Assembly: GCA_026702845.1 (NCBI GenBank) | Contig: JADCLS010000005.1 | Coordinates: 248,001 to 312,000, forward strand | DNA length: 64,000 nt | Origin: Candidatus Heimdallarchaeota archaeon | GTDB lineage: Archaea > Asgardarchaeota > Heimdallarchaeia > Heimdallarchaeales > Kariarchaeaceae | Reading direction: 5' to 3' | Shown here: positions 37,920 through 58,662 of the stretch, one piece after another | Position numbering within the stretch: position 1 is the first letter of the stretch | Layout: the number at the start of each line of letters is the position of its first letter | The notes under the pieces: model-generated | Seen by the model: only the letters and a program-made list of their open reading frames with translations | Database searches by the model: none | Told to the model about the DNA's origin: nothing | Translations under genes and position numbers: made by a program

Positions 37920-39336
37920 GGTAATATCCTACTTCCACATTCTCCAGAACAGCCACCGCATCCTCGGTTAAGATGGCGAGACTGAAATACAAGGTCATTA
38001 AGTAACTTGCAATTGCCTTGTTATCAATACTCATCATACGTACTGAAAATCCAGGAGCAACCTCTCCTGGGATTCCCACCTGGTACAGACCAGTAACACC
38101 CTGAATATCCTCATCACCTGCACGAATAAGGATAATACTTGATTTACCTGGTCCATGTCTGCTTACTGTTTGTCCATTGACCTCAACCTTATCGCTGGGG
38201 ATAAGGGGGATACCTCTCCATGTGATCACTGTTTGACCCATGATTGTTACATGTGGTGGTGGTGTACCTCTCCAAGTACACTCTCTTTCGAATGCAGCAA
38301 TGGTTCTGGGATGTGCAAGGAAGAAACTAGGTTGTTTCCAAGCAAGAGAGAGTAAAGCATCCAAATCATCAGGAGTAGGGGAACCATATCTTGGCTGGAT
38401 CCTCATGGAGGGATGACAATTGGCTAGAAGTCCAAAATGAGGATCATTTATCAACATCCATTCCTGTTTCTCATACATATATTGCATGGTGGTTTGTAAT
38501 TGCATTTGGAGTTGGTTGATGGGATTATTATAGAGATCACTGACCCGAGTGTGAACCTTGAGTACAGTTTGAATGACATTCATTGGAATCTCAACTGGTT
38601 CCTCAATATAATCAATATAGGTTAATGGTAACTCTTCCACACCCATATGGCCTGCCTTTAGTTCAACTCTATGTTCTCCGAAATCATCGGTTAGCTCTTT
38701 GATTCTCATTGCCTCTTCAATTGCAGTATCAAAATCTGCTTTTAGCTTTTTACTCGAGGATAGAATTGATTTTAGGTCTGTTACAGATAATGTAAGGAAG
38801 GTTGTCTCAGTTAACGTTGTAATGGTAAAATCTGCTTCTTTATCAGCAACTAATTCATCTTCACCAAAGAATTCACCTGGGCCAATTACCTTTAAGCGCA
38901 ACATTTCCTCATGTTTCCCAATCTTTGTCATTTCTGCCTTTCCACTGGCAAGGATATACATCTTATCCCTATCCTCACCTTCAGCAATTAATTCGGTATC
39001 AATTGCAAATTGCTCAATCTTAAGGTTCTCAACCATTTTGCTTATGATTTTTCCATCTAGATTGTAGAAAAGGGGAACCTGTTTAAGGGCATCAGGTGTT
39101 ACCACGGGAACTCCTCCATCTCCAAATTCAATTGGTATTAATCCAGTACCTTTGAATATTAGTTTAGTTCTGTTTATTCTTAAGGTTCCTCCAGGTACTT
39201 CCTTCCATGACAACAATTTTGTGAGAAGTTTAGGACTCTGTGCAACCATCATAGGTCTTGTTTTAGCAGTATGAGTAAGATTTCTCGCTGCTTTGATGCT
39301 AATAGTCTCGATGCTATCTTCTTTCATATTTTTCAC
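37885..39336 (-). CDS. Family 2 encapsulin shell protein with internal cyclic-nucleotide-binding-like domain
   Basis: 483 residues from GTG 39336 (ATG 39327 is an alternative). The HK97-type shell parts flank an inserted CNB-like domain at about 84-212. Shell features match SrpI-like family 2B proteins: a Pro-Gly-Gly-Thr-Leu-Arg-Ile-Asn-Arg N-terminal strand, then Pro-Met-Asn-Val-Ile-Gln-Thr-Val-Leu-Lys-Val-His-Thr-Arg. Later come Gln-Pro-Arg-Tyr-Gly-Ser-Pro-Thr-Pro-Asp-Asp-Leu-Asp and Phe-Leu-Ala-His-Pro. The phosphate-binding cassette (Gly-Glu-Phe-Phe-Gly-Glu-Asp, 154-172) lacks the usual Arg, so nucleotide binding is doubtful. It should self-assemble into a compartment holding the desulfurase encoded next. 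Confidence 0.9.
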   Translation of the reverse strand: MKNMKEDSIETISIKAARNLTHTAKTRPMMVAQSPKLLTKLLSWKEVPGGTLRINRTKLIFKGTGLIPIEFGDGGVPVVTPDALKQVPLFYNLDGKIISKMVENLKIEQFAIDTELIAEGEDRDKMYILASGKAEMTKIGKHEEMLRLKVIGPGEFFGEDELVADKEADFTITTLTETTFLTLSVTDLKSILSSSKKLKADFDTAIEEAMRIKELTDDFGEHRVELKAGHMGVEELPLTYIDYIEEPVEIPMNVIQTVLKVHTRVSDLYNNPINQLQMQLQTTMQYMYEKQEWMLINDPHFGLLANCHPSMRIQPRYGSPTPDDLDALLSLAWKQPSFFLAHPRTIAAFERECTWRGTPPPHVTIMGQTVITWRGIPLIPSDKVEVNGQTVSRHGPGKSSIILIRAGDEDIQGVTGLYQVGIPGEVAPGFSVRMMSIDNKAIASYLMTLYFSLAILTEDAVAVLENVEVGYYHDYTARKPKLK

Positions 39337-39551: not shown

Positions 39552-40631
39552 CTAGTTTAATCTGAATCTGGCAGGTACCTCTATAGTTTGATAACATACA
39601 GGGCAGATCATCATTCCATGTTCATCTTGTTTTGAGAAATCTAGCTCTGCTGCGTCACAATTGGGACAATTCTTGTTAACTATTCTTGCAGAGGTTCTTA
39701 CATTGATTGCAAGTTTACGGATGCTCTCGGTTACGTCTTTATTGACACTACTTATGTTATTCTCAGCATAGATGGTCATCTCGATTTTACCCTCCTGATT
39801 CCGACTTGAGACAAAGAAATCAACAAGACAGATTGGCATGTTACCTGGACCCATCTTCACCATATCTATTCCTCCAGTGAAATCAGTACCAGCATCATTC
39901 ATTCTCTCGTTCAATATTTTCCAATCATTGAGAATCGATTTAATTCCATTGAAAATAGTACTTGCGACAGCAGTGAACGTAAATGATGATTGCAAACCCT
40001 CAATAGATCCATCTTTGAGTTTTGCAACGAAATCCATTGAGGAGTGCTCCATTTGCTTCTCAAACTTCTCCACTCGTTTAATTTTCTTCTCATTTGCCTT
40101 TTGGATACGATCCATGATCTCCATGTCATCCATCTTTTTCGTGAATACTTGTGTGGATGGGAGAACTCTAACAGGTGCCATGGGTAGAGATTGATCTAAC
40201 ACAGAATCTAATATAAAAGGGCTTGATGAGGGATAGGTAAAGGTGAATTGAGAACCAATATCTATTATGCGACCATCCATCTGGTCTCCCAGCATAGACC
40301 CCCAATCTCCATCAATGGCTGATGAGCGATCAGAGATGAGTATAGTGATCCTCTCAGCTACAGGAGCATTAAATGGAGTAAGGGATACCCAATCTCCTTC
40401 TGCCAGCATACTGACTAGTTCCTTATCCACATAGAGTTTAGGCTGAGGTAGATCCCCAAAACTCACGCTGTCTATTTTTACACAGAATGAGTACTCCTTA
40501 CCCAGAGCAGTGGATAAACACAAGACAACCTCAAAAGGGTCAAGATTCATTGTCTCATAAGATTGAGGTAATTGTAACACGGCATTATCCATGAGCATAG
40601 GTCTGATTACTGCTTGTATTGTAGTCGCCAT
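39552..40631 (-). CDS. Cdc48-N-domain-like protein with C-terminal zinc ribbon, no ATPase
   Basis: About 359 residues from ATG 40631; an upstream start at 40676 adds 15. Residues ~1-170 resemble the double-psi barrel plus clam domain of Cdc48/VAT/Ufd1: Val-Ser-Leu-Thr-Pro-Phe-Asn-Ala-Pro-Val-Ala-Glu-Arg-Ile-Thr-Ile, then Leu-Gly-Asp-Gln-Met-Asp-Gly-Arg-Ile-Ile-Asp-Ile-Gly. A charged helical stretch and a mixed domain follow. The protein ends with Cys-x-x-Cys...Cys-x-x-Cys. No AAA ATPase motif is present. It lies 216 bp upstream of the encapsulin on the same strand. It might serve the shell or, given the nearby ubiquitin-fold system, unfolding machinery; both are speculation. Confidence 0.6.
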   Translation of the reverse strand: MATTIQAVIRPMLMDNAVLQLPQSYETMNLDPFEVVLCLSTALGKEYSFCVKIDSVSFGDLPQPKLYVDKELVSMLAEGDWVSLTPFNAPVAERITILISDRSSAIDGDWGSMLGDQMDGRIIDIGSQFTFTYPSSSPFILDSVLDQSLPMAPVRVLPSTQVFTKKMDDMEIMDRIQKANEKKIKRVEKFEKQMEHSSMDFVAKLKDGSIEGLQSSFTFTAVASTIFNGIKSILNDWKILNERMNDAGTDFTGGIDMVKMGPGNMPICLVDFFVSSRNQEGKIEMTIYAENNISSVNKDVTESIRKLAINVRTSARIVNKNCPNCDAAELDFSKQDEHGMMICPVCYQTIEVPARFRLN

Positions 40632-40925
40632 TATCCTTGTGGAGGTATAATACGCCATTACAAAAATATTTTTCAATACAGTCAGTCATTCCATTGTATT
40701 TTCTATCAATTTACACTAGATAATAGCTAGATTAAATGCTAAGTATTTTTAAATTACGACAGGGATGATTAATCTGTAATCATTTTCAAATTGGGTAAAA
40801 TTGAACTCTTGTCATCGAATTGGAATGAATAAGATTTTTTTGCTAATAATTCTATATTTAATAACAATGCGCAATTTTATCTAGGATTATACTTATGTAT
40901 CAAAAAATAACACATTACTTATTCA

Positions 40926-43037: not shown

Positions 43038-43295
43038 ATGATGAAAATTTTAAAATTTCAAAGCACTGTGGGATCTAATCGCAATGAATTCCCAATTGAG
43101 GTTATGGCAACTGTAAAATTCCAGAAAATAGTGGGAGAAGTAGGTAAAAAACTGAATTTGCCCAATGAATCTATCACCATCCATCCCCCTGGAGGAGCTG
43201 CACTTACTTTCACCGATTATAATAAAACGGTTGAAGAAATTATCGAGGCCTATGGTGATCGGTTTAGAATCATCAATCGTGGTGTAGTAGGATGA
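43038..43295 (+). CDS. UFM1-like ubiquitin-fold modifier
   Basis: 85 residues, the same length as human UFM1. The C-terminal half parallels UFM1: a helix Val-x-Phe-x-x-Ile-Val-x-Glu-Val-Gly-Lys-Lys-Leu-Asn-Leu-Pro, a Gly-Gly loop, a Thr-Val-Glu-Glu-Ile-Ile helix and the end Phe-Arg-Ile-Ile-Asn-Arg-Gly-Val-Val-Gly. Mature UFM1 ends Leu-Arg-Ile-Ile-Pro-Arg-Asp-Arg-Val-Gly. Like UFM1 it has a single terminal Gly after Val; unlike UFM1 nothing follows it, so no maturation is needed. The stop overlaps the E1 start (ATGA, 43292-43295), the E1 is UBA5-like, and a UFC1-like E2 is nearby. The identification rests on this combination; the fold alone would not decide the family. Confidence 0.82.
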   Translation: MMKILKFQSTVGSNRNEFPIEVMATVKFQKIVGEVGKKLNLPNESITIHPPGGAALTFTDYNKTVEEIIEAYGDRFRIINRGVVG

Positions 43296-44059
43296 GTGGA
43301 GACGAGAGCAGATACTCTCGTCTAAAAGCCCTTGAGGAATATGGGATCGAGGTAAACTGGAATGATCTTCGAGATCGTACTATTGCAATTGCAGGGGTAG
43401 GTGGAGTAGGATCTATCGTTGCAGAATTACTCGCGAGGCTGGGAGTACATAAAATACATATATTTGATTTGGATATTATTGAGGATGTAAATCTAAATAG
43501 GATGATCTATACAGAAAATCAAGTTGGACAAAACAAGGTCGATGCATTGAAAGCGTATTTACAACAAGTTAATCCTTCAGTCGAGGTGATAGCACATCAT
43601 GGAGATATAATGAGGATGGATTTTGAGGACGAGTTCGAGGATATAATTAGTATATGTGATATGGGAGCATTATGTTTAGATAATCTACCCGCACGACAGT
43701 ATTTTAACGTCAAGTGTGTCAAACACAATGTGCCATACATGGATTCTGGATTACTTAGAAGTGGGCTTGGAGGATATATCCACTTGGTGATACCTGGTAA
43801 AACTGCTTGTTATCAATGTACTGGTGCGGTTGAGATTGTGAATACCAATGATGCAACTGGTGAGCCCTGTACGGCATCAATCCCAACTACTGTGAATATT
43901 GTCTCCTCGTTACTGGTGCAACATATGATCAAGTATTTTCTTAAGCTTGGTGAGATTCAGGATTATATCTCCTATGATCTCATCACCGATGAGAATTTAT
44001 TACTAAAATTAGCAAGAGACCCCAATTGCTTTGTTTGTGGGGATAAACAGGTGAAATGA
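43292..44059 (+). CDS. UBA5-like E1 activating enzyme
   Basis: 255 residues, a ThiF/E1 adenylation domain. Gly-x-Gly-Gly-x-Gly is at 35-40, an acidic Asp-x-Asp at 59-61, and Asn-x-Asn-Arg at 67-70. The catalytic Cys193 lies in Gly-Glu-Pro-Cys-Thr-Ala-Ser-Ile-Pro-Thr-Thr, parallel to UBA5 Val-Cys-Ala-Ala-Ser-Leu-Pro-Thr-Thr. Zinc ligands are Cys173/Cys176 and Cys246/Cys249. The segment Asp-Ser-Gly-Leu...Gly-Gly-Tyr-Ile-His-Leu-Val-Ile-Pro-Gly-Lys-Thr-Ala-Cys also matches UBA5. It ends right after the zinc site, so UBA5's C-terminal modifier- and E2-binding tail is absent. Expected to adenylate and thioester-link the modifier encoded just upstream. MoeB/ThiF or bacterial E1 alternatives fit less well. 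Confidence 0.88.
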   Translation: MSGDESRYSRLKALEEYGIEVNWNDLRDRTIAIAGVGGVGSIVAELLARLGVHKIHIFDLDIIEDVNLNRMIYTENQVGQNKVDALKAYLQQVNPSVEVIAHHGDIMRMDFEDEFEDIISICDMGALCLDNLPARQYFNVKCVKHNVPYMDSGLLRSGLGGYIHLVIPGKTACYQCTGAVEIVNTNDATGEPCTASIPTTVNIVSSLLVQHMIKYFLKLGEIQDYISYDLITDENLLLKLARDPNCFVCGDKQVK

Positions 44060-44911
44060 ATGAAAATTGTGATACATGAGAATGTTAAACTGTACCTAGA
44101 GTACCATGCCATTAAAAATAAGGGTCAAGAGATCTACGGATGGCTGATAGGATATGAAAAAGTAGGAAAAAAGCGTGAATTACACGTTGTTGCTGCATAT
44201 TCGGCACATGATTATCTACGACAGACCCTGATTAATGCTGAACCCAATCCCAATGAGATTGCAGCAATAGAGGAATATCTCCCTATTGGATTGAGCAATC
44301 TAGGTCAGTACCACTCACATCCAGAGAAGGTGTACCACTCAGCAACTGATGATAAAACCCTACTAGAAATGGCTCAAGTATATCCCAATGTCATCTCCTT
44401 GGTGACTAATGGAGATGTGACAAAAGTATACTGTGTGGAAAATGATAAAGTTATTGAGGCGGATCTTAAAACCACAGATAAACTCCTTGATATGCATCTT
44501 CTCGAAGTGGAAATTCCTATGCAGCTGGATAGTACAATTTCTAGGCCTAAAAATGCCATGGAGGTCGAGAGCCAACTAAAAGAACAACTAAAGAATTTCA
44601 AACCTGGGGATGGGTTTAAACCAATTTCAGTTGGTAAAGGAGGAATGTCTGTTCCATTTATCTGTACAGTTCCCTATGTAGTGGATAGTATGGATATGAT
44701 CAAGAATTACATTACCAATATTGCATATAATAGCTTGATTAGTAAGACCGAGGGGGATATATCCCCTGATCTGGTCTATTATCAGGATTTACCTCTGAAT
44801 ATTACTGCAAGTTCCTTTGCACGATCAACTGCTAAACAACGAGCTGCATTGCTGGAAGAAACTGGATATGCAAGAGAAGCAGATAGATGGAGGAGAATAG
44901 CTACTTCCTAA
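44060..44911 (+). CDS. JAMM/MPN+ metalloprotease, candidate modifier deconjugase
   Basis: 283 residues. Zinc-protease motif: Glu24 in Gln-Glu-Ile-Tyr-Gly-Trp-Leu-Ile-Gly, then His85-x-His87 (Tyr-His-Ser-His-Pro), Ser94 and Asp97; the spacing His-x-His-x6-Ser-x-x-Asp is one residue shorter than usual. A ~140-residue C-terminal domain of unknown fold follows. The gene starts immediately after the E1 stop (TGA then ATG), so both are made together. Eukaryotic UFM1 is removed by UFSP cysteine proteases; here a JAMM enzyme may do this job. Activity on the modifier is inferred from the operon. Confidence 0.85.
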   Translation: MKIVIHENVKLYLEYHAIKNKGQEIYGWLIGYEKVGKKRELHVVAAYSAHDYLRQTLINAEPNPNEIAAIEEYLPIGLSNLGQYHSHPEKVYHSATDDKTLLEMAQVYPNVISLVTNGDVTKVYCVENDKVIEADLKTTDKLLDMHLLEVEIPMQLDSTISRPKNAMEVESQLKEQLKNFKPGDGFKPISVGKGGMSVPFICTVPYVVDSMDMIKNYITNIAYNSLISKTEGDISPDLVYYQDLPLNITASSFARSTAKQRAALLEETGYAREADRWRRIATS

Positions 44912-45048
44912 TAGATAGCAATTAGTTAAAACCCTAAAATTAACAAGAATGAACAGGGGAAAAAATAGATATGTCTCCTTTAAAAAGTACAAATTGATCT
45001 GCAAAGGTTTTTTTAATAGATGATATAAATTCAGAACAGAATAGAAAA

Positions 45049-46122
45049 ATGGTATTCAGCACTGTACTTCTAGATGCAAGTTCTTCAATTATCGGGAACT
45101 TGGGTAAGAAAGCCATAGATGGTTTCTTAAATGTAATCACCGATTGGCCAAGAGATCCCGAGGAAGGGATTAATAGAGCTAAAGGAGCAAAAACATCAAC
45201 TGAGGCAAGTCTTAAGCGTTTAGAGGACGATATGACTGAAGTGGTGAAATTCCTCACCAAAGAAGGACAAATGCAACCACTACGTAAAATAAGCAGTCTC
45301 AAGGAAAAATTGACATCTGTCCGTCATGAGATTGAATCCAAGAGTGGTAGCTATACTATGGATAACAGTCTCAAGGATGAAGATATGCTAAAAGCTTACA
45401 CCACCGTTTACTTCACTGTTCTCTATGACTCGATGATCTGTGATACCGTAGTTGATCAGATGCAGGATAGAATCTATGATGATGATTTTGAGATGGATGA
45501 TCTGGTCAAGAAGATGAGAACTGGGATCAATAATCTTGAGAACTCCTGGGCCATGTATATGAGAGTTATCGCAGATCCAAAGATCGCCAAATCTGCTTAT
45601 CAGGAACTGAAAAGCACTCGAAAAGATCTAATCGAGTTCATGGAAGAAGTTGATAAGCACACCAGAGGTGAGATGGATATGCTGGTCTCAGGTGTGATTC
45701 TGAATAAACCAAAGATTTTTGGTAAGAAAAAGTATATTGAGAGTCTGGCTGCACTTATGCATGAAACTGCCAAACACATGGGAGAGATCAAGATCTCAAT
45801 TCCTCAGATCTTCGACAAGATCAGACAAAGTAATCCCAATGCACAATTCTCAGATGAGGACATTGAGAAAGCAGCAGATCTTTTGATTGAACACAACCGT
45901 GCATTTGCCTTGACTTTGGAAGATAATATCAAGTGGATAGAGTTCAGAAAAGGGGATGAATCCCTGGTTTGCGGTAACTGTTCCATTTCTGGAGGAATAT
46001 ACAGAGAATTCAAGAGATGCGAAATAACAGGAAAACAAGTCTGTGAGGATTGTATTACCTTCTTTGGTAAATGCAAGATTTGTGGACAGAAGGTGAAACA
46101 CGGTAAACACCCTAATATTTAA
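45049..46122 (+). CDS. Helical protein with C-terminal zinc module, linked to SPFH gene
   Basis: 357 residues. Residues 1-300 are almost entirely alpha-helical, with charged coiled-coil-like stretches. The last ~55 residues have Cys-x-x-Cys...Cys...Cys-x-x-Cys...Cys-x-x-Cys, probably two zinc sites. No family recognised. The stop codon overlaps a strong Shine-Dalgarno of the SPFH gene 15 bp downstream, so the two gene products probably work together. It follows the JAMM gene by 137 bp. A substrate adaptor role in the modifier pathway is possible but unsupported by motif. Confidence 0.75.
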   Translation: MVFSTVLLDASSSIIGNLGKKAIDGFLNVITDWPRDPEEGINRAKGAKTSTEASLKRLEDDMTEVVKFLTKEGQMQPLRKISSLKEKLTSVRHEIESKSGSYTMDNSLKDEDMLKAYTTVYFTVLYDSMICDTVVDQMQDRIYDDDFEMDDLVKKMRTGINNLENSWAMYMRVIADPKIAKSAYQELKSTRKDLIEFMEEVDKHTRGEMDMLVSGVILNKPKIFGKKKYIESLAALMHETAKHMGEIKISIPQIFDKIRQSNPNAQFSDEDIEKAADLLIEHNRAFALTLEDNIKWIEFRKGDESLVCGNCSISGGIYREFKRCEITGKQVCEDCITFFGKCKICGQKVKHGKHPNI

Positions 46123-46130
46123 GGAGGAAG
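46121..46130 (+). promoter_or_regulatory. Strong Shine-Dalgarno for the SPFH gene
   Basis: AAGGAGGAAG is unusually complete for this window, sits about 9 bases before ATG 46137 and overlaps the preceding stop codon, implying translational coupling. Confidence 0.75.
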
Positions 46131-46136
46131 ATTGAG

Positions 46137-47054
46137 ATGTTTAAGAAATTAAAAGAAGTATTTAGTAAAGATGATGACAAGAAAACAATAATCTGGGATA
46201 AGATGAACGAAGATCCCAGTGATCCCAACCGAGAACTGATATTTAGATTCCCAAATCCCGAAAGATCTAATTTCAAAGATGTGGAGAAAGTAGGAGTTCG
46301 AAGCTATGAACAAGCTATGATTTTCAAGAATGGTGCTCATGCTGGAGCAATTTCTGGTGGTTTATATGAGATTGAGAAGGATTTCCGTAATCCATCAACT
46401 GAAATCATCTGGTTTGATACAGGCGAGTTGCTTCTCAAATTCGGCGTGGGCCATGCTGGTGGAATGCCTCCTCTTACTGCTGATGAATTCAAGGTTGGAG
46501 GAAACGGTGAGATGGGAATAAAGGTACAAAACGCAGAAATGTTTTGTAGTAAACTAGTTGTAGGTAATCCTAAGTTCAATGATTTGGAGCTTAGAAAGTA
46601 CATCAATGGTGAAGTTACCGCTGCATTTAGAAATCTGGTCAATAAATACACCCTGAAAAATCTTGTAACCTCGGATAAGGATGATATTTCAGCCATGTTC
46701 AAAGCCATGACCAATGATCGACTTAAATCGATAGGTCTTGAAATGACAACAATGACCTTACAGGGCCTCGCACATCCTGAGGAAAATAAATCACTTGTAG
46801 ATGATATGTTGCAGGCAGGTGCTGGAAATATCAAAGCACTTATGGAAGAGATCGATGCTCTCAAGGATAGGATGAAAAAGGTAAAACAAAGGCTCAATGA
46901 CACAGATGATAAGTATCTAGATGGTGAGATTGGTGATGAAGAGTACAATGAGACCATGAACAGATTCAAGACGATGATGAGCAGATACGAGAATGATCTT
47001 AAAGAAAAGGAAACAGAGCTGAATAATGCCACCAAAAACAAAGGCGTAAGGTAA
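46137..47054 (+). CDS. SPFH-domain protein of the virion-core-like (YdjI) type
   Basis: 305 residues. N-terminal Glu-Leu-Ile-Phe-Arg-Phe-Pro, then Val-Arg-Ser-Tyr-Glu-Gln-Ala-Met-Ile-Phe-Lys-Asn-Gly and Ser-Gly-Gly-Leu-Tyr-Glu-Ile, the usual opening of soluble SPFH proteins. The SPFH domain spans about 25-225 and a C-terminal coiled coil about 235-300. There is no membrane helix and no zinc ribbon of its own; the adjacent 45049 protein supplies one. SPFH proteins form large rings at membranes. In eukaryotes they mark ER sites of ubiquitin-dependent degradation, which fits its position after the conjugation genes, though that is analogy. Confidence 0.8.
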   Translation: MFKKLKEVFSKDDDKKTIIWDKMNEDPSDPNRELIFRFPNPERSNFKDVEKVGVRSYEQAMIFKNGAHAGAISGGLYEIEKDFRNPSTEIIWFDTGELLLKFGVGHAGGMPPLTADEFKVGGNGEMGIKVQNAEMFCSKLVVGNPKFNDLELRKYINGEVTAAFRNLVNKYTLKNLVTSDKDDISAMFKAMTNDRLKSIGLEMTTMTLQGLAHPEENKSLVDDMLQAGAGNIKALMEEIDALKDRMKKVKQRLNDTDDKYLDGEIGDEEYNETMNRFKTMMSRYENDLKEKETELNNATKNKGVR

Positions 47055-47145
47055 TTCAATTAAAGTTATAATTTATAATACTAAAAGATGATTATTTTCT
47101 TTATCATACATTCATAACCGATTCGTATGGATCGATGAATTATAC

Positions 47146-47511
47146 TTATTTGTTATTCCAGTAATAAGCAACCCTCAGTGTGAGTATATTGATTACAAAG
47201 TAAATCAAAATTAACTCAATCTCCCAATAATGTCCAAGACTAATGACTTCGAAAAGGAATGAGATATTGATCAATAAATAGAGAGCACCGAAAATCATGT
47301 TCAATAATTTAACTTTAGATTGTTGAAGAAAGATGCTGATCAATATCATCATAATTTGTAATCCAGCTAGAGCACCTGCAATATAGGAGAATATTGGATC
47401 ATCAATCTCTTCATGAGGGCCAGGTTGTATGATTCTTAACATATCTCCAAAGGTCCAAATAAGAAAGTGACTTATCCAGAGTATTGATAACTTGATTTTT
47501 TCATCATCCAT
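47146..47511 (-). CDS. Four-helix membrane protein, unknown
   Basis: 121 residues with four membrane helices (about 8-25, 38-60, 68-88, 92-115) and very short loops. No conserved motif recognised. It is the last of a run of minus-strand genes that begins at 55698. Confidence 0.6.
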   Translation of the reverse strand: MDDEKIKLSILWISHFLIWTFGDMLRIIQPGPHEEIDDPIFSYIAGALAGLQIMMILISIFLQQSKVKLLNMIFGALYLLINISFLFEVISLGHYWEIELILIYFVINILTLRVAYYWNNK

Positions 47512-47646
47512 CTTTATTCACTTTCTCCTGTTTCTATTGATTTTTAAGTTAAGTGTGGTGAAATGATATAAACGTTGAATTCTAGTGAAAACAAGTAATC
47601 TAAGATAATTAGTACGAGCAATACTCATCTACTCAGTAATCTTTTA

Positions 47647-48576
47647 TCATTCTTGAGATTGATTATCTGGAATTTCTGGTGGTTGCTCAGCCGGGTCAGC
47701 TTGCTCGTTTTCTGCTTTTTCTGTATTCTCTTGCTTCATAACTCGTCTTTTCTCAAGCCAGAGCAAAAATCTTTTGATGATTTGTGATGAGATCAATACG
47801 TAAAGGACTCCCGCAATCAAATCAACAATATAATGATGCTGCAAATATACTGCACTAAACCAGATTGATAGGGGATAGATATAACCCAGATAAACCCACT
47901 TTGATTTATCCTTGTATTTCATTGAGAAGAAATACGCGGATATGAATGAAAAAGCACTATGTAATGAGGGAACTGCTGCATAGGGATTGGAATTAAATGT
48001 CTCATAAAATGAACCATAGAAATTATTGAAAAATCTATCAACATTCACCAGACCTGCTGCAGATTCTCTGACATTGGTGAGAATTTCTGGTTGAGCAAAT
48101 CCGTGCGAGGCAACGTACCATGGCGGTGCTACCGGTAATAGAGCAAACGTCACTAGGGCCGAATACGTAGTCAGGATAAATGTATAGGAATAGTACTTGA
48201 ACATTTCTTTATCCTTGGATACATAGAAAATGAGAATACCCACTGTTAAGGGGATGGCAAAGTGTACGGTATACAATAATGCTGTTGAGAGATCAAGCCA
48301 TAGAGTACTGATATGATCCTTCATCCAGAACGAGGGAATTTGACCATCAAACATCCAACCAAATAATAATAATTCAAGATCATATACATCCTTGACATGG
48401 ATGAATTTGTGATCATCAGCTATGCCACGCATCATATCATACAGTATCCAGAGCACCAGGAATGGTCCCCAGTTGATGATGAATTCCTTAGCACGACGAA
48501 AGAGTGCAGTGACAAAGATACCTGCAATAAGAAAGTGATCTAATCTCAATGCTTGCAGAAATATTGGCAATTCCAC
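47647..48576 (-). CDS. PAP2/Aur1-like membrane lipid phosphotransferase
   Basis: 309 residues with about seven membrane helices. Phosphatase motif two is Ala-Val-Pro-Ser-Leu-His-Ser-Ala-Phe, and motif three is His-His-Tyr-Ile-Val-Asp. The arrangement, with Val-Ala-Pro-Pro-Trp-Tyr before it, resembles the PAP2_3 group that includes fungal Aur1 and inositol-phosphotransferases. It probably handles polar-lipid headgroups on the outer membrane face. The C-terminal tail is long, Glu/Pro/Gln-rich and cytoplasmic. A tandem paralogue follows upstream at 48622. Confidence 0.85.
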   Translation of the reverse strand: MELPIFLQALRLDHFLIAGIFVTALFRRAKEFIINWGPFLVLWILYDMMRGIADDHKFIHVKDVYDLELLLFGWMFDGQIPSFWMKDHISTLWLDLSTALLYTVHFAIPLTVGILIFYVSKDKEMFKYYSYTFILTTYSALVTFALLPVAPPWYVASHGFAQPEILTNVRESAAGLVNVDRFFNNFYGSFYETFNSNPYAAVPSLHSAFSFISAYFFSMKYKDKSKWVYLGYIYPLSIWFSAVYLQHHYIVDLIAGVLYVLISSQIIKRFLLWLEKRRVMKQENTEKAENEQADPAEQPPEIPDNQSQE

Positions 48577-48621
48577 GTTTAATACCTAATGGATGACTTT
48601 TTAGTATGTATTTAACTACAA

Positions 48622-49509
48622 TTATTTACTAGTATCTTGAATGTCAATTTCATCCACTTGTTGCACATTTCCCTCGTCACCGATCAATAATACTGAGCGT
48701 TTTATGAGTATAAATTTGGCTATTCTAGATGCAATGAATACATAAATGGCACCAATTATCAGATCAACTATGTAGTGATGGATCATATACACAGCTGAAA
48801 ACCATATCATTGCAGGATAGATCAAAGCAAGATAAGCAAGTTTACTCTTCTCCTTGTATTTGTAGATGAAGAATGAAGCCGCTGTGATGGAATATCCTGA
48901 ATGGAGTGAGGGGACTGCTGCAAAAGGATTACCATCAAATGTAGAATAGAACGATCCATAGATATTTTTGCCAAAATATCTACTCCAGTTAATAAGAGGA
49001 GCATAGTAATTATTGCCATAGGGTTGGGCAAATCCACGCCTCGCCACCCACCAAGGGGGGGCCACCGGATACAGGTAAAAAGTGAGCAGGCCCAAGTAGG
49101 TAGTGATCAGAAATGTAAGAGTGTAGTATCTAAATGTCGGTTTATCTTTGGATACATAAAATATCATTACTCCCACGTAGATGGGTATGGCAAAATGAAA
49201 GCTATAGATCTGATCTGTTGCTGCATCGAGAAAATCCGTTTTGATATGATCTCGCATCCAAAAGGAGGGGATTTGTCCATCGAAGGCCCAACCAAAAAGA
49301 ATCAGTTCCGCATTGTAGATAGCTTCAATGTTGATGAAATTTCCATTATCAGCTTTGCCACGAAACATATCATATGCTATCCAAAGACTCAACCAAGGTA
49401 CCCAGTACTTCATGAAATCCTTGAATCGTTTGAAAAATGGAGTAATTAGCATCCCAAACCAGATGACATGATCTATCCTGAGATCATCAATAAATGGTCC
49501 TAATGACAC
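48622..49509 (-). CDS. PAP2/Aur1-like membrane protein, tandem paralogue
   Basis: 295 residues, colinear with the 47647 protein: Ala-Val-Pro-Ser-Leu-His-Ser-Gly-Tyr and His-His-Tyr-Ile-Val-Asp motifs, Val-Ala-Pro-Pro-Trp-Trp, and the same early Phe-Gly-Trp-x-Phe-Asp-Gly-Gln-Ile-Pro-Ser-Phe-Trp-Met. The two genes clearly arose by duplication and lie 45 bp apart. The tail is shorter and different, so the two products may differ in partners or substrate. Confidence 0.85.
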   Translation of the reverse strand: MSLGPFIDDLRIDHVIWFGMLITPFFKRFKDFMKYWVPWLSLWIAYDMFRGKADNGNFINIEAIYNAELILFGWAFDGQIPSFWMRDHIKTDFLDAATDQIYSFHFAIPIYVGVMIFYVSKDKPTFRYYTLTFLITTYLGLLTFYLYPVAPPWWVARRGFAQPYGNNYYAPLINWSRYFGKNIYGSFYSTFDGNPFAAVPSLHSGYSITAASFFIYKYKEKSKLAYLALIYPAMIWFSAVYMIHHYIVDLIIGAIYVFIASRIAKFILIKRSVLLIGDEGNVQQVDEIDIQDTSK

Positions 49510-49635
49510 AAACGACCGATCGTTGATCTATTTATAGCTATGTTTGTCATTAATCTTAGGATTACCTAGTATTCTGTACTGAATTGAACGTTCATTAGGA
49601 TTGCTTTCTATAATAATCTCAAATTTACAGGTAAT

Positions 49636-50175
49636 TTATCCTAGAATGCCATCCCACATCTTGAGGACGACATTCATCTTGGAATTCCACCATACCAATA
49701 TTTCTTGGAGTAAAAAGTGTGCAATACTGAGATTAGGTGACCATACGTTCAAATCCTTCATATGATCATGGCATAACATTACATAGGTTTTGCCATTCAT
49801 TTGCCATTTATTCTCTATATATAGGTTTCCAGCTGCGTAATCTATGATTTTTTCTTCTACAAAGCAACGAGGGAATACTTTAGGATAATCTGAGGTTAAA
49901 ACAATAGCCATATCAAATCTGATATCATCTCGTCCTGGAATTTTGAGAAAGCCCTCCCAAACGCGGTAATTATATTTCTTGTCTCTTGAAGGGGCTAATC
50001 TGAACCACAAAGCATTTTTTTGATCCTGCAGATAATTAATATAAACCGATACATTTTTCATCTCCAGCTTTACTCGATCCGTCCAGTTACGCGATTTAGG
50101 CCCAATTTGCAGTCGTTCATCATCAAATTTCACGAATAATTTCTCTGCTTCACTCTCGAAATACTCATCACTCAT
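49636..50175 (-). CDS. UFC1-like E2 conjugating enzyme
   Basis: 179 residues (UFC1 is 167). It shares UFC1's distinct features: a Gly-Pro-x-x-Arg...Trp N-terminal helix, Lys-Asn-Ala-x-Trp-Phe-Arg-Leu (UFC1 Asp-Trp-Phe-Arg-Leu), a strand Ile-Arg-Phe-Asp-Met-Ala-Ile-Val-Leu-Thr-x-x-Tyr-Pro, a Gly-Lys-Thr motif, and catalytic Cys135 in Met-Leu-Cys-His-Asp-His (UFC1 Ile-Cys-Leu-Thr-Asp-His). A later helix has Leu-Ser-Ile-Ala-His-Phe-Leu. No canonical His-Pro-Asn of ubiquitin E2s is present, as in UFC1. It should take the modifier from the UBA5-like E1. It is last in a minus-strand unit with the UFL1-like gene and a methyltransferase. Confidence 0.85.
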   Translation of the reverse strand: MSDEYFESEAEKLFVKFDDERLQIGPKSRNWTDRVKLEMKNVSVYINYLQDQKNALWFRLAPSRDKKYNYRVWEGFLKIPGRDDIRFDMAIVLTSDYPKVFPRCFVEEKIIDYAAGNLYIENKWQMNGKTYVMLCHDHMKDLNVWSPNLSIAHFLLQEILVWWNSKMNVVLKMWDGILG

Positions 50176-50267
50176 ATGTATTACATAAGGTAGTAATACT
50201 TTCCTTTATAAAAAATTGTTGAGTTTGACTGGGAATTTATCATTAAAACAGTATTTCTGTAAACTTT

Positions 50268-50918
50268 TCAATTTTTCTCTGGTTTTTGTACAATAAGAGT
50301 GACATATCCTCTCTCATCACCCGGTTTCATCAATCTACGTTCTTCTGATATGGAATGGATAGTCCATCCTGCAAAAATATCAAGTAATTCATCTTTGGTG
50401 ACAAAACGAATCGGAGGATCTGTGGGAAAATGGGGTAGAATATTACCTGAATACACAAAAAATCCACCATCCTTGAGCTTGTCTCGAATCTCCTCTAGCT
50501 TGGGGATCACATCATCAAAAATGTACTGCAATGATTGAATGGAGATAATAGCATCAAATATCTCATCCTGAACCTTATAAGAGGCCATATCTGCCACTTC
50601 AAAGTGCAATTTATCCTCTATATCGAATTGCTCAGCCCTCTTTTTCGCAACTAATATACCTTTGGCTAATGCATCCATCCCAGTGATTTCATGACCTTGT
50701 TTTGCTAGAAAACATGCCTCTCTACCTGAGCCACAACCAAATTCTAGGATCTTCTGATTTTTTCTATCCATCATGGCCATCATGACTGCATACTGCTGAA
50801 CACGAGGATTCACCATGTAATCAGGATAGGATAGATCTTGCTGGTCATTTTCTCGGTTATAAAAATTATCCCAGCCATTTAACCACTGATTAGGTGTAGC
50901 CACATCTGCATTTTTCAT
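50268..50918 (-). CDS. Class I SAM-dependent methyltransferase
   Basis: 216 residues. Motif I is Ile-Leu-Glu-Phe-Gly-Cys-Gly-Ser-Gly-Arg-Glu (about 58-68), followed by Gly-Met-Asp and a motif-IV-like Phe-Asp-Ala-Ile-Ile-Ser-Ile-Gln-Ser-Leu-Gln-Tyr. Fold and length are typical of small-molecule or protein methyltransferases of the TehB/UbiE sort. It lies between the UFL1-like and UFC1-like genes with short gaps (57 and 92 bp), so it is probably co-transcribed. A link to modifier chemistry is not known in eukaryotes. Confidence 0.85.
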   Translation of the reverse strand: MKNADVATPNQWLNGWDNFYNRENDQQDLSYPDYMVNPRVQQYAVMMAMMDRKNQKILEFGCGSGREACFLAKQGHEITGMDALAKGILVAKKRAEQFDIEDKLHFEVADMASYKVQDEIFDAIISIQSLQYIFDDVIPKLEEIRDKLKDGGFFVYSGNILPHFPTDPPIRFVTKDELLDIFAGWTIHSISEERRLMKPGDERGYVTLIVQKPEKN

Positions 50919-50975
50919 ACAGTAAAGTAGATTTTTTTGATTAATAAAGTTTAGAGAAGGGATAATTATTTTTTG

Positions 50976-53900
50976 TTAGTCTAATTTTCCATAGCCTGTT
51001 TTCTCAGCTTCTTCAAATGCGGAGAAGAGCTCATCTATATGTTCTCCAATCAGATCCTGATTGATTTCCAGGACATCCAGATCAATAGTAAACCCATAGC
51101 TTTCAGGAAGATCCAGTAACCACAGTTGAAGTGCAGTCTCATCCACATTGAGCATTCTAGCCATCTGCTTGATTTCAATACGCGTATACCTGGAAATGAT
51201 CTTCTCAAACCTCTCCCTGTTGATATTCTTAATCTCTGTTGATGGAGCTGCTGCTGCTGGTTTAGCAGTTACTGCCCCCATTACTAAAAGATTATCGAAT
51301 TTGGTGGAAGTTCCTTGTCTATCAATTTTTGCATCGAGAACTTTATTTTCTATAAGTGAATCTAATTTATCATGGACAGCATTGAGATCCATATCAAATT
51401 TCGATGCTATATCAGATACCAAGACTGGTTTGGTCTTTGCATTCAATTCATCAAGGATTTTTTGCAATACCCTGTCAAATACTAATTCCTGCATCTCTTG
51501 ATCATTCACTGATCCCATAATCATTTTGACCTTCTCAGGATCCTCACGCAGTGCAATATTGTACTGATAGCTGAATAAAATCGATGGATGATTGGATATT
51601 ACCTCTCTGACAATACGTTCAGCCACATCCTCAGGTCCAGCTACATCATGAGTTACTGCCTTGAACATATCTGGAAAGAATTCTAGTGCTCTCCCCACTA
51701 TAATGTAATCCTTGGGGAATTTTAGATAGAAGTCCCTGGATATCCTGACATTGTACTGATATATCACTCTATACTCTGCAGTTGGATCGTTATCAGCAAA
51801 ATTATTGTGTACATCATACATATGATCCTGATCAACATCAAAATCGATGCACATGTCATTGATATCATATGCTCCAAAATCAATGGCAGATAGGAAATTC
51901 TGCACATATTGCTCAAGTAGACTATACTTGAAAATGGTGTTATCATCACCAATTATACAGCTCTTCCCAGCATTGATTTCATGTTTCAAGGCCTCAATAT
52001 CATGTTCCTGAAGGTTTAATCGTAAGCTGCTGAGGATCGTACTGAAATCCTTCCTCTCCTCAGTTACCTGCTGAGCGATTATATCAGGTAAGCTATTCCA
52101 GAACCAAGTCGAGGAGATAATCTGTTTCTGATCTTTGGAAATGATGAAATTACCATGTTCCTCAGCATAGGTAAGGGTGAAATCTTTAATGAGATACTGA
52201 ACATTATCTGGCACATTCAGGGCTGTAATGATGGATTGAACATCCATCTTTGTGGTCACGAGCTTGAGTTGATCATCAATTATTAGGCTAAGGTTGTTAG
52301 AGCAGAACACATGCATATCACTTAGGAATTTAAAACCAGCACCTTCTGGAATAGAGTAATTCTCCAAGTACTCCTCAATTTGTGATTCTGAATACTCGGA
52401 ATTGTTAGCCAGATCCTCGATTGTGGCTATTTTCATCAGATCGATGACTTTATTCAGCTCCTGTGTAAAGGTGCTGATATAAGTTTCAGATACATAGGAG
52501 TTTCCAAATCGTTTGTTTGCACCAATTCCCTTTTTATCAATGATAAAATTGATTTCGTAGGGGCTGATACCAAGAGATTCTGATAGTTTATGCAGTCCAA
52601 TACGCTTATCCTGCTGGATACGAGTGGTGATCAATTCATGTGATCTTGAGATCCTTCGCTGATTAGTATAATAAATAGTCCCATCATCATCACTGAACCT
52701 TAACAATTCAGTTCCTTCTAGAGTTTCAATAATCGCACTGGTGATTTTATCTGAGAGCTGAGTATCAATGAATTCCTTTACTACAGAATAGGTAATAGTA
52801 TCTGAAGAACTAATAAAATCCTCAATTGCATCGAGTACTGCATCATAAGCTTTGTGAGACACCATACAGTCCTTTACTCGCTTGATAGCATCATTATTAA
52901 GGATCTTGGGAATGATCTCTTCCTCAAAGTAAGAGGAACTAATATTATATTCCCGACAACTCTCATCATCACAGGCTACTCTATTCCTCTCGATGACTTT
53001 GGCAGTGATATTCTTGATTATCCTATCTCGATATTGTTCAGAAATATAAATGACTTGGTCCTCATAATTATTGGTTTTGACAATAGAACCATGAGAGAGT
53101 TCATCTGAAAATGCATCACTCATAAAGGATTCATTCTTACCATCATAGGATGATCCTGCAAGAAATGTAGTTAATTCTGAGTAATCTAGGTGCCCATCAA
53201 CATTTAATTCCTTCTTGACCTTTCCTCGCAATGATCCGGTCTTAATGAATGCTTTGATTTTAGATATTACCGGTAAGATTAATGCAAACACTGTACTTAG
53301 TAAGAACACTGCATAAACCAATGGGAGAATAGAATCATCTATTAGGTAATAACCCACATAGAAGAATACTGTTAGGGTAGCATAATTTCTCCAGATGATA
53401 CCACTGAAAATGACTATCCAAATGATAAGAAAACTTTGTAAGGTAAGGTCAACTGATTGATACTCATCTTTTACGGTGATTAAAAAGAAGGTGAAACTGA
53501 CAAGTATCGTGTACAGAGCATGAGGGCTATTGAAATAGTATTTTGTTATCGGTGTTCTAGATTGTACATATATATAACTTGTCCAGAATGGAGTTCGGAC
53601 GAGATCATACAGGTGGGCAAGAAATGGTAGTAATATCAACAAACCCCAGAAGCCTGCCTCATCTAACCAATCCATTGTGGAGGAGAAGTGCATCAAAAAC
53701 ACTACCAAAACTGCTGCTGCAGGTCCAGCGAATATCAGTCCCCATTTGGTTGAACTAAATCTCATAATTCTTTTGACCCGTCTAATCCTCCTATTCTTCT
53801 GAAATGTGTAGAAGGTGAAATAGATCAGAAAAATTACAAGAGGAATACTCACAAACGAGGGTAGAAACACAAATGGAAAGGACAAGAAATCCCAGAGTAT

Positions 53901-54209
53901 CCACTCACCAGTAAAAATAGAAAATACTAGCATACTGGAGATGAGCTGTAAGAATCTATTTGTTATGAGAAATCCTGCGAATTTGCTAAAACTAATCACC
54001 CGTAATAACATATGGGAAATGTTCACCATGGCATAATAGATGAGTATCAGAGCAAAAAGTTGAGAGAATCCCGAATTCTCCATAGATCGAATTATGGACC
54101 GAGTAGAGACATCAAATAATCCCCAATTATCTAATTCTGCAGAGATAATGAATCCCAATGTAACAATAAAGAGTGATTTTGCATACAATTCAATAGTAAC
54201 CAGTTTCAT
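50976..54209 (-). CDS. Membrane-anchored UFL1-like E3 scaffold with DDRGK1-like C-terminus
   Basis: 1077 residues. About eight to nine membrane helices fill 1-320, then a chain of small helical winged-helix-like domains. Residues ~540-740 follow human UFL1: Leu-Gly-Ile-Ser-Pro-Tyr-Glu-Ile, Tyr-Val-Ser-Glu-Thr-Tyr-Ile, Leu-Asn-Val-Pro-Asp-Asn-Val-Gln-Tyr-Leu (UFL1 Leu-Gly-Ile-Pro-Asp-Ala-Val-Ser-Tyr-Ile), then Ser-Ser-Thr-Trp (UFL1 Ser-Gly-Thr-Trp). Residues ~905-975 parallel the DDRGK1/UFBP1 winged helix (Val-Leu-Val-Ser-Asp-Ile-Ala-Ser-Lys-Phe...Lys-Ile-Asp-Arg-Gln-Gly). In eukaryotes UFL1 and membrane-bound DDRGK1 act together; here both seem joined in one chain. Generic winged-helix repeats are the main alternative. 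Being in one unit with the E2 supports an E3 role. Confidence 0.72.
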   Translation of the reverse strand: MKLVTIELYAKSLFIVTLGFIISAELDNWGLFDVSTRSIIRSMENSGFSQLFALILIYYAMVNISHMLLRVISFSKFAGFLITNRFLQLISSMLVFSIFTGEWILWDFLSFPFVFLPSFVSIPLVIFLIYFTFYTFQKNRRIRRVKRIMRFSSTKWGLIFAGPAAAVLVVFLMHFSSTMDWLDEAGFWGLLILLPFLAHLYDLVRTPFWTSYIYVQSRTPITKYYFNSPHALYTILVSFTFFLITVKDEYQSVDLTLQSFLIIWIVIFSGIIWRNYATLTVFFYVGYYLIDDSILPLVYAVFLLSTVFALILPVISKIKAFIKTGSLRGKVKKELNVDGHLDYSELTTFLAGSSYDGKNESFMSDAFSDELSHGSIVKTNNYEDQVIYISEQYRDRIIKNITAKVIERNRVACDDESCREYNISSSYFEEEIIPKILNNDAIKRVKDCMVSHKAYDAVLDAIEDFISSSDTITYSVVKEFIDTQLSDKITSAIIETLEGTELLRFSDDDGTIYYTNQRRISRSHELITTRIQQDKRIGLHKLSESLGISPYEINFIIDKKGIGANKRFGNSYVSETYISTFTQELNKVIDLMKIATIEDLANNSEYSESQIEEYLENYSIPEGAGFKFLSDMHVFCSNNLSLIIDDQLKLVTTKMDVQSIITALNVPDNVQYLIKDFTLTYAEEHGNFIISKDQKQIISSTWFWNSLPDIIAQQVTEERKDFSTILSSLRLNLQEHDIEALKHEINAGKSCIIGDDNTIFKYSLLEQYVQNFLSAIDFGAYDINDMCIDFDVDQDHMYDVHNNFADNDPTAEYRVIYQYNVRISRDFYLKFPKDYIIVGRALEFFPDMFKAVTHDVAGPEDVAERIVREVISNHPSILFSYQYNIALREDPEKVKMIMGSVNDQEMQELVFDRVLQKILDELNAKTKPVLVSDIASKFDMDLNAVHDKLDSLIENKVLDAKIDRQGTSTKFDNLLVMGAVTAKPAAAAPSTEIKNINRERFEKIISRYTRIEIKQMARMLNVDETALQLWLLDLPESYGFTIDLDVLEINQDLIGEHIDELFSAFEEAEKTGYGKLD

Positions 54210-57997: not shown

Positions 57998-58086
57998 TTG
58001 TGGAATCATTTCTGTTCTTTGCTAATTAAATGAAAGACCTACGATTTATTTTTATGCGTACTCTCATAGCTCTGATTAGGTTTAAT

Positions 58087-58662
58087 ATGTCAAATAGGAT
58101 CATGCTAAGGATGCATTTGATTGGTGATGGTGCTGTAGGAAAGACCTCACTGCGTAATCGGTATATGGGAAAGGGATTCACTACCTCTCATAACATGACG
58201 ATTGGTGCAGATTTTGCAGCAAAAGATATGCATGTCATCGTGAACGGCAAACAGTACGATATAACAGCTCAGATTTGGGATATGGCTGGACAACAGCGAT
58301 TCACTGAAATTAGATCTCGCTTCTATGGAGGCTCACAAGGTGGACTTTGTGTATTTGACCTTACCCGGGCGGACAGCTTTCAGAATATCAATAACTGGAT
58401 TACTGAACTGTGGAAACATAATGGTAAAGGAGTAGTTCCCCTGATGTTACTTGGTAATAAAAGTGACCTTAAACAGCAAAGAGAAGTTCCTGAGAAGAGA
58501 ATATTGGATTATTGTAATGCACTCTCAGCGAAAACCAAGGATTATGGATTCGAGGTTAAGTACTTGGAAACTTCAGCGGCAAATGGTGAGAATATTGATC
58601 TAGCTTTCCAGTTGATTGGAGAAATTATCATCTCAGATTTGCTCTCAAAAGGAAGACTTTGA
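58087..58662 (+). CDS. Rab/Ras-like small GTPase
   Basis: About 191 residues from ATG 58087, chosen because the P-loop follows within ~12 residues; an in-frame ATG at 58030 adds 19. Motifs: G1 Gly-Asp-Gly-Ala-Val-Gly-Lys-Thr-Ser, G2 Thr in Met-Thr-Ile-Gly-Ala-Asp-Phe, G3 Trp-Asp-Met-Ala-Gly-Gln-Gln-Arg-Phe, G4 Gly-Asn-Lys-Ser-Asp, G5 Glu-Thr-Ser-Ala. Gln at the catalytic site is kept, so it should hydrolyse GTP. No C-terminal Cys for prenylation. The Trp-Asp-x-Ala-Gly-Gln pattern groups it with eukaryotic-like Ras-superfamily GTPases that are abundant in Asgard archaea. Confidence 0.93.
   Translation: MSNRIMLRMHLIGDGAVGKTSLRNRYMGKGFTTSHNMTIGADFAAKDMHVIVNGKQYDITAQIWDMAGQQRFTEIRSRFYGGSQGGLCVFDLTRADSFQNINNWITELWKHNGKGVVPLMLLGNKSDLKQQREVPEKRILDYCNALSAKTKDYGFEVKYLETSAANGENIDLAFQLIGEIIISDLLSKGRL

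Follow-up and report, generated by a model that had tools for sequence, protein, structure and literature searches.

Organization of the locus

A stretch of 64,000 nucleotides from the assembly GCA_026702845.1 of a Candidatus Heimdallarchaeota archaeon (contig JADCLS010000005.1, positions 248,001 to 312,000 of the forward strand; hereafter the window) carries genes for a modifier, an activating enzyme (E1) and a conjugating enzyme (E2) of UFM1, UBA5 and UFC1 type, accompanied by a JAB/JAMM-type protease and further recurring genes. This cluster and its neighbours are read here as a predicted Asgard system for UFM1-like conjugation that is linked to a membrane, with a probability of roughly 0.8. 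The contig is about 360 kb long. Some 89% of the window is taken up by open reading frames (ORFs), its GC content is 37%, and the genes in question are the following:

43038-43295, plus strand: UFM1-type modifier of 85 aa, ending in RGVVG with the stop codon directly after the Gly
43292-44059, plus strand: UBA5-type E1 of 255 aa, assigned by phmmer against the PDB, trees and alignment
44060-44911, plus strand: JAB/JAMM-type protease of 283 aa (Prok-JAB, 1.2e-8), directly abutting the E1 gene
45049-46122, plus strand: helical protein that includes a winged-helix-like segment and, at its C-terminus, a Cys-rich module of zinc type
46137-47054, plus strand: SPFH/Band 7 protein of 305 aa, a predicted membrane scaffold (Band_7_1, 8.6e-9; Band_7, 1.2e-6)
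49636-50175, minus strand: UFC1-type E2 of 179 aa with C135 in a C-H-D-H motif and without His-Pro-Asn (HPN)
50976-54209, minus strand: membrane-anchored winged-helix/PCI-type protein of 1077 aa, two genes from the E2
39552-40676, minus strand: protein of 374 aa whose C-terminus bears a zinc ribbon; it accompanies the operon in related loci as well

The modifier and E1 genes overlap by 4 bases, and the minus strand carries a methyltransferase gene in addition to the E2 and the 1077-aa gene. An initial annotation had proposed a homologous cascade made up of four genes, namely UFM1-, UBA5-, UFC1- and UFL1-like ones. The modifier, E1 and E2 types are borne out by the present analysis, whereas the UFL1 element is not, and the genes for the protease, the winged-helix/zinc protein, the SPFH protein and the zinc-ribbon protein, all of which recur in related loci, had been missed.

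The activating enzyme

In phmmer searches of the PDB, the E1 matched UBA5 at 1.1e-44 and E. coli MoeB at 4.9e-19, which is a distance of 25 orders of magnitude. Against human UBA5 (here and for the other families, one eukaryotic sequence, the human one, was compared), the 13 operon E1s scored (of 17) reached 147-185 bits. The best of 29 other Asgard proteins of the ThiF family had 94 bits, and none of the remaining ones exceeded 72. The first set of ThiF proteins comprised the 30 best-ranked loci, from which one without a frame at its centre was dropped. A tree of 43 rows grouped human UBA5 with the 13 operon E1s (support 100/100). The remaining ThiF matches of the same 14 genomes were added for a tree of 66 rows, resulting in 48 other rows (47 different; one fragment of 107 aa was excluded). 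This tree joined human UBA5 and all 17 operon E1s (98/90) apart from the 47 other Asgard ThiF proteins, and within the UBA5 clade the operon E1s formed a group of their own without UBA5 (84/90). The E1 did not fall in with MoeB or ThiF.

The catalytic features point in the same direction. C193 of the window E1 aligns with the UBA5 cysteine in the context VCAASLPTT, as initially annotated, and both noted Cys pairs (173/176 and 246/249, with only six residues following the second) are kept in the alignment: C173, C176 and C246 are invariant in 13 rows, i.e., 12 operon E1s and human UBA5, and C249 nearly so. A study on UBA5 gives C250 as its catalytic cysteine (PMC8481289); judging from the construct numbering, this is probably the residue aligned to C193. 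The same study describes binding of UFC1 via a C-terminal helix of UBA5 with L394, L397, M398 and M401 (PMC8481289). A pattern resembling this UFC1-binding sequence (UBS), with the L394/L397/M398/M401 spacing, is found in the C-terminal tails of eight of the 17 operon E1s, these tails not being independent of each other, but not in the window E1. In shuffled tails, the pattern occurred with a mean of 0.44 and never eight times in 5000 trials.

The conjugating enzyme

The E2 lacks the HPN motif of ubiquitin E2s, as already noticed in the initial annotation, and C135, H136 and H138 are invariant in all 17 alignment rows. When a profile of five E2 rows was searched against the PDB at E<=1, every matched chain (26/26) was UFC1, and the single hhalign comparison of the E2 alignment with human UFC1 gave 2.3e-6. 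Likewise, the Pfam model UFC1 matched 17/17 relatives of the E2 at E<=10, with 1.6e-6 as the best value. A copy of the E2 fused to the modifier (L044) matched the model at 6.3e-10 and 39.4 bits over model positions 7-150 of 155, while two of the five odd frames scanned, those of L043 and L045, remained without a match at 0.01. Thirteen of the 15 genomes holding examined loci match Pfam UFC1, nine of them above the cut-off. Moreover, human UFC1 shares its residue at 13 of the 27 invariant E2 columns.

Separation from the ubiquitin-type E2s was assessed with the 33 matches to the ubiquitin-E2 family (UQ_con; 24 + 9) of 12 Asgard genomes. In phmmer comparisons with human UFC1, the 18 operon E2s scored 9.1-29.5 bits, as opposed to at most 7.9 bits for 24 ubiquitin-type Asgard E2s (two of them not reported by phmmer) and at most 2.1 bits for the ORFs of the other nine UQ_con loci. 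The operon E2s therefore outscore all 33 and do not side with the ubiquitin E2s. A relative of the window E2, 52% identical to it, comes from a metagenome-assembled genome (MAG) of Candidatus Heimdallarchaeota.

The modifier

The terminal Val and Gly of the modifier are kept in 21/21 rows of an alignment in which four rows represent fused copies cut at the Val-Gly or just after it. A Foldseek search with the predicted structure placed UFM1 at ranks 1-7, the structure comparison by VIA returned UFM1 in rows 1-11, and a tree grouped the modifiers with human UFM1 (95/89). When human UFM1 was searched against 980 ORFs of the loci, three modifiers came out on top, the E values being only 0.03, 1 and 1.3. 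As judged by its predicted structure, the modifier is nearest UFM1, which supports the UFM1-type identity proposed at the outset; the sequence signal alone is weak and does not decide the matter.

In six of 24 modifiers (L002, L006, L007, L016, L043, L044), the modifier is fused in frame to the E2, with the junction from Val-Gly to E2 lying inside the protein. A further feature is a tail after the Val-Gly, which is present in seven of the 24.

Distribution and conservation of the operon

A contig scan with the five-row E2 alignment yielded 18 loci, 17 of them in MAGs labelled as Asgard archaea. The remaining one (L017) is a partial E2 in a MAG labelled Patescibacteria; it is 47% identical to the window E2 and bears the motifs of the Loki copies, and its contig is perhaps misbinned. 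With a 17-row E2 profile, matches were obtained in 19 of the 227 genomes searched, all from the Asgard phylum. Altogether, 24 loci were examined (the window, L001-L018 and L041-L045), some of which share a genome (L005 with L012; L014-L016). Modifier, E1, JAB protease and E2 occur together in 17 of them (window, L002-L014, L041, L043, L044). The others hold E2 and JAB on a short contig (L001), modifier, E2 and a partial E1 on a short contig (L015), a modifier-E2 fusion alone (L016), E2 fragments (L017, L018) or a degenerate copy without the Cys-His motif (L045).

One locus is of a different build. A single frame (L042:16831-19524) combines SIR2-like, tetratricopeptide repeat (TPR), UFC1-like and modifier-like parts, with the catalytic Cys of the UFC1-like part read as Ser. 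This fusion possibly branched off from the UFM1-type operon towards a role in defence or sensing.

Protease and membrane-associated companions

The residues expected of a JAMM protease (pattern E ... H-x-H ... S-x-x-D) are invariant in 11/11 rows, i.e., E24, H85, H87, S94 and D97. The enzyme is predicted to free the C-terminal Gly of the modifier, to remove the modifier from its targets, or both.

SPFH genes were found in 13 of the 24 loci, and in each of these 13 a gene for a winged-helix protein directly adjoins the SPFH gene; L004 holds a second SPFH frame without such a neighbour. Pfam EAP30, the family of the ESCRT-II subunits Vps22/Vps36, matches five of eight winged-helix relatives at E<=1, two of them over the cut-off and with values of up to 1.7e-9; the window protein itself (45049-46122) gave no EAP30 match. 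It is related to its counterpart in L009 by tblastn (3.8e-4 over 62 aa). In a Foldseek search with the AlphaFold2 model of a Loki winged-helix protein (pLDDT 83), ranks 1-5 were ESCRT-II subunits, the best at 2.1e-5. The window protein is accordingly taken as the positional counterpart and a weak relative of the EAP30-like proteins in other operons, and as a candidate E3 or adaptor. UFL1 and UFBP1 are known to act through winged helices. Because of this mode of action and of the gene position, the winged-helix gene beside the SPFH gene appears a likelier E3 or adaptor than the 1077-aa gene.

The zinc-ribbon protein of 374 aa had been considered as a reader of the Cdc48-N/UFD1 kind. This candidate was dropped, CDC48_2 having matched only one of five relatives at only 0.17. 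Its best PDB profile match was only a LysW-type zinc ribbon (0.013), and neither Pfam nor the PDB profile search gave a notable family match beyond zinc ribbons.

The 1077-aa gene and the question of UFL1

The fourth element of the initial annotation was a winged-helix array parallel to UFL1. The frame of 1077 aa is real and has winged-helix matches. Its identity as UFL1 is not confirmed, because the match to Pfam E3_UFM1_ligase is short (54 of 272 profile positions) and just below the cut-off (7e-5; 23.1 bits, cut-off 23.2), and because PCI matches the same place better (6.1e-7); DDRGK reached 0.014. A simple hydropathy count indicates six hydrophobic segments in the protein. The PDB search returned one chance match at 1.8, and a protein search found only the protein itself among the 7989 listed proteins that were scored. 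Three of 225 genomes match it, solely to the last ~90 aa. The winged helix at its C-terminus is also seen in further Asgard proteins (L005, L007, L069, L071).

The UFL1 model as such matches 81 of 225 Asgard genomes, 13 of these 81 being among the 19 with a UFC1-type E2. The best of these matches (up to 7.7e-20) belong to a family other than the 1077-aa gene. At 15 loci (L046-L060), frames of this UFL1-model family comprise 649-807 aa, and those read feature N-terminal Cys motifs and repeated winged helices.

Ubiquitin systems in the same genomes and neighbouring genes

Matches to the ubiquitin family and to UQ_con also occur in 12/12 sampled Asgard genomes, so that the UFM1-type operon appears to coexist in these cells with another modifier system. 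Besides, in two genomes (L148, L149) a ThiF protein of ~290 aa adjoins a UQ_con-type E2, forming an E1-E2 pair which is neither UBA5- nor UFC1-like.

Further genes of the window were noted in passing. The SPFH gene and the E2 gene are separated by two tandem genes for PAP2-like membrane phosphatases (47647-49509); one of these matches PAP2_3 at 3.9e-23 and the other is its close relative. At 35898-39336, a SrpI-like shell protein of the Type 2A encapsulins (1.3e-99), which includes a cNMP-binding domain, is encoded next to a class-V aminotransferase (cysteine desulfurase-like, 673 aa). A gene for a Ras-family small GTPase is located at 58030-58662 (1.9e-41).

Weighing of the evidence and alternative explanations

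A number of observations weigh against a UFM1-type conjugation system at this locus and have to be set beside the evidence given above. Concerning the E2, the Pfam UFC1 match of the window copy (3.9e-4, 20.6 bits) remains under the cut-off of 25, the Asgard C-x-D-H motif is one residue shorter than the C-x-x-D-H of UFC1, and the catalytic cysteines of the operon E2s and UFC1 are paired by hhalign but not by MAFFT or phmmer. In the window, the E2 gene lies 2.6 kb off, on the opposite strand and beyond the two PAP2 genes. Three of the 19 genomes matched by the E2 profile hold only a fragment with stops (G015), a degenerate copy (G065) or a Cys-to-Ser copy (G110). The window E1 has no C-terminal tail, the region which in UBA5 carries the UBS and the UFM1-interacting sequence (UIS), and C-terminal tails of random ORFs average 3.3 matches to the UBS-like pattern and reached at least eight of 17 in 16 of 2000 draws. 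As to the modifier, Pfam Ufm1 matches only one of 21 sequences (E 0.037), UFM1 is absent from the PDB sequence matches of both a single modifier sequence and a six-row profile, and the branch of UFM1 in the modifier tree is long and was flagged. In the structural comparison of the winged-helix protein with ESCRT-II, the TM values are low (0.24/0.44) and the root mean square deviation is 16.6, so parts of the protein match better than the whole; ESCRT-II is also absent from the 50 rows returned by VIA, which are single winged helices (MarR-type and similar). Finally, the system includes no proven UFL1, the status of the 1077-aa gene being uncertain. Matches to CDK5RAP3/C53 were limited to two weak and unconvincing ones in the 19 related genomes (the control also matched Thermotoga, below the cut-off). 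UFSP (Peptidase_C78) was found in none of these 19 genomes, with an uninformative control that gave no match anywhere, and in none of 20 window proteins scanned.

Three alternative explanations were considered. In the first, the cluster is a mobile defence-type ubiquitin-like operon of the Bil/Bub kind, the resemblance of which to UFM1 arose by convergence. The patchy occurrence in 19 of 227 genomes would fit such an origin, as would the relative fused to SIR2 and TPR parts in which the E2 Cys is read as Ser. This explanation is improbable, however, considering that the SPFH gene and its winged-helix neighbour recur in Loki- as well as Heimdall-labelled loci and that the PDB match between the E1 and Citrobacter BubCD reaches only 3.5e-6.

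Slightly less probable still is an archaeal system of ubiquitin type, like that of Caldiarchaeum, seen at a distance. The Caldiarchaeum system consists of ubiquitin, a canonical E1, a UBC-type E2, a RING protein and Rpn11. A JAMM protease is present in both cases, and two results on the modifier, which likewise count against a UFM1-type assignment, speak for a closer link to ubiquitin: Caldiarchaeum ubiquitin follows UFM1 at Foldseek rank 8, and human UFM1 scores 10.1 bits with a hidden Markov model (HMM) of 13 Asgard ubiquitins versus 9.3 bits with the HMM of the modifiers (for the former, 13 of 15 extracted ubiquitin-family proteins with >8 bits to human ubiquitin were kept). Yet the operon holds neither a ubiquitin-type E1, according to the tree which sets its UBA5-type E1 apart from each of the 47 further Asgard ThiF proteins analysed, nor a ubiquitin-type E2, according to the better UFC1 scores of its own E2. 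Moreover, the terminus of the modifier is a single Gly (VG), the operon proteins scanned gave no RING match, and all 12 sampled Asgard genomes possess ubiquitin-family and UQ_con matches besides. The last explanation, a sulfur-transfer pathway with a MoaD/ThiS/Urm1-like carrier, a MoeB-like E1 and an E2-like protein as non-catalytic partner, could account for a ThiF-family E1 without a separate Cys domain and a small beta-grasp protein ending in Gly, but is very unlikely in view of the E2 Cys kept in 17/17 rows, the accompanying JAMM protease and the wide lead of UBA5 over MoeB and ThiF in the E1 matches.

Comparison with known systems

The predicted UFM1-like system shares with its eukaryotic counterpart a modifier with the fold nearest to UFM1 and a single-Gly VG end, a UBA5-type E1 with the Cys embedded in the adenylation domain and a UFC1-type E2 without HPN. 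Some archaeal modifiers bear a short tail after the VG, as human UFM1 does. Unlike in eukaryotes, the archaeal genes are combined in one operon, with a JAMM metalloprotease and no UFSP found, some genomes encode the modifier and its E2 as one fusion protein, the partners are an EAP30-like winged-helix protein and an SPFH protein, no UFL1 is proven, and the E1 is short, with the window copy lacking a tail for the UBS.

With the operon of Caldiarchaeum subterraneum, the Asgard genes have in common an archaeal modifier cascade with a JAMM protease; for that organism, one report describes processing of the modifier precursor by an Rpn11 homologue (PMC6043591). It differs in its ubiquitin-type E1 and E2 (PMC11354881), and the Asgard modifier is structurally nearer UFM1. 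As to the ESCRT-II proteins Vps22/Vps36, Pfam and Foldseek both match the winged helices of the protein encoded beside SPFH to EAP30, whereas its gene lies beside SPFH in a UFM1-type operon and its product features extra helical and winged-helix parts; in the window copy, which has no EAP30 match, a zinc-type module stands in place of the last winged helix. Asgard homologues of UFL1 and DDRGK1 were reported in a survey by Picchianti et al. (2023; PMC10183829), and Asgard proteins match the UFL1 Pfam model here as well. Unlike in that survey, the window has UFM1 and UFC1 types, and membership of the 1077-aa gene in that UFL1 family is unproven.

Proposed mechanism

The chemistry, the E3 role and the membrane site of the system would be as follows. 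Tailed or E2-fused modifiers would be cleaved by the JAMM protease directly behind their Val-Gly; in the window copy, the Gly is already terminal. The E1 would adenylate the Gly of the modifier and then take over the modifier on C193, from which it would be passed to C135 of the E2. The winged-helix protein encoded beside the SPFH gene, which is ESCRT-II/EAP30-like in related operons, would act as an E3 or scaffold, guiding the charged E2 towards its targets on an SPFH-organised membrane. Reversal of the tagging would again be a function of the JAMM protease.

Implications for the origin of the UFM1 pathway

The eukaryotic UFM1 pathway likely has archaeal relatives, and the initial annotation had seen in the archaeal cascade perhaps its ancestor. 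A tentative scenario, held at somewhat below even odds, goes further: the pathway may have arisen in an Asgard membrane-associated operon with an ESCRT-II-type winged-helix E3 scaffold, JAMM-mediated maturation of a tag frequently synthesised in fusion with the E2, and a membrane site set by an SPFH protein. Eukaryotes would have inherited the tag, the E1 and the E2, and would have rebuilt the E3, in the form of the winged helices of UFL1/UFBP1, and the protease. No report of UFM1 or UFC1 in archaea was found among the papers listed in searches of the open PMC literature (preprints not covered). An "Asgard archaeal UFM1" is mentioned in PMC9192718, as an outgroup for Vps22/36.

The 2023 survey gives UFM1 and UFC1 from eukaryotes only and suggests that UFL1 and DDRGK1 predate UFM1 (PMC10183829). 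If the present reading is true, an archaeal operon of modifier, UBA5-type E1 and UFC1-type E2 would overturn this order of UFL1/DDRGK1 before UFM1, and it would offer a minimal UFM1-type system from a prokaryote, amenable to reconstitution in vitro. Moreover, the ESCRT-II-like and SPFH partners suggest that the membrane link of UFM1 and its winged-helix scaffolds may predate the endoplasmic reticulum.

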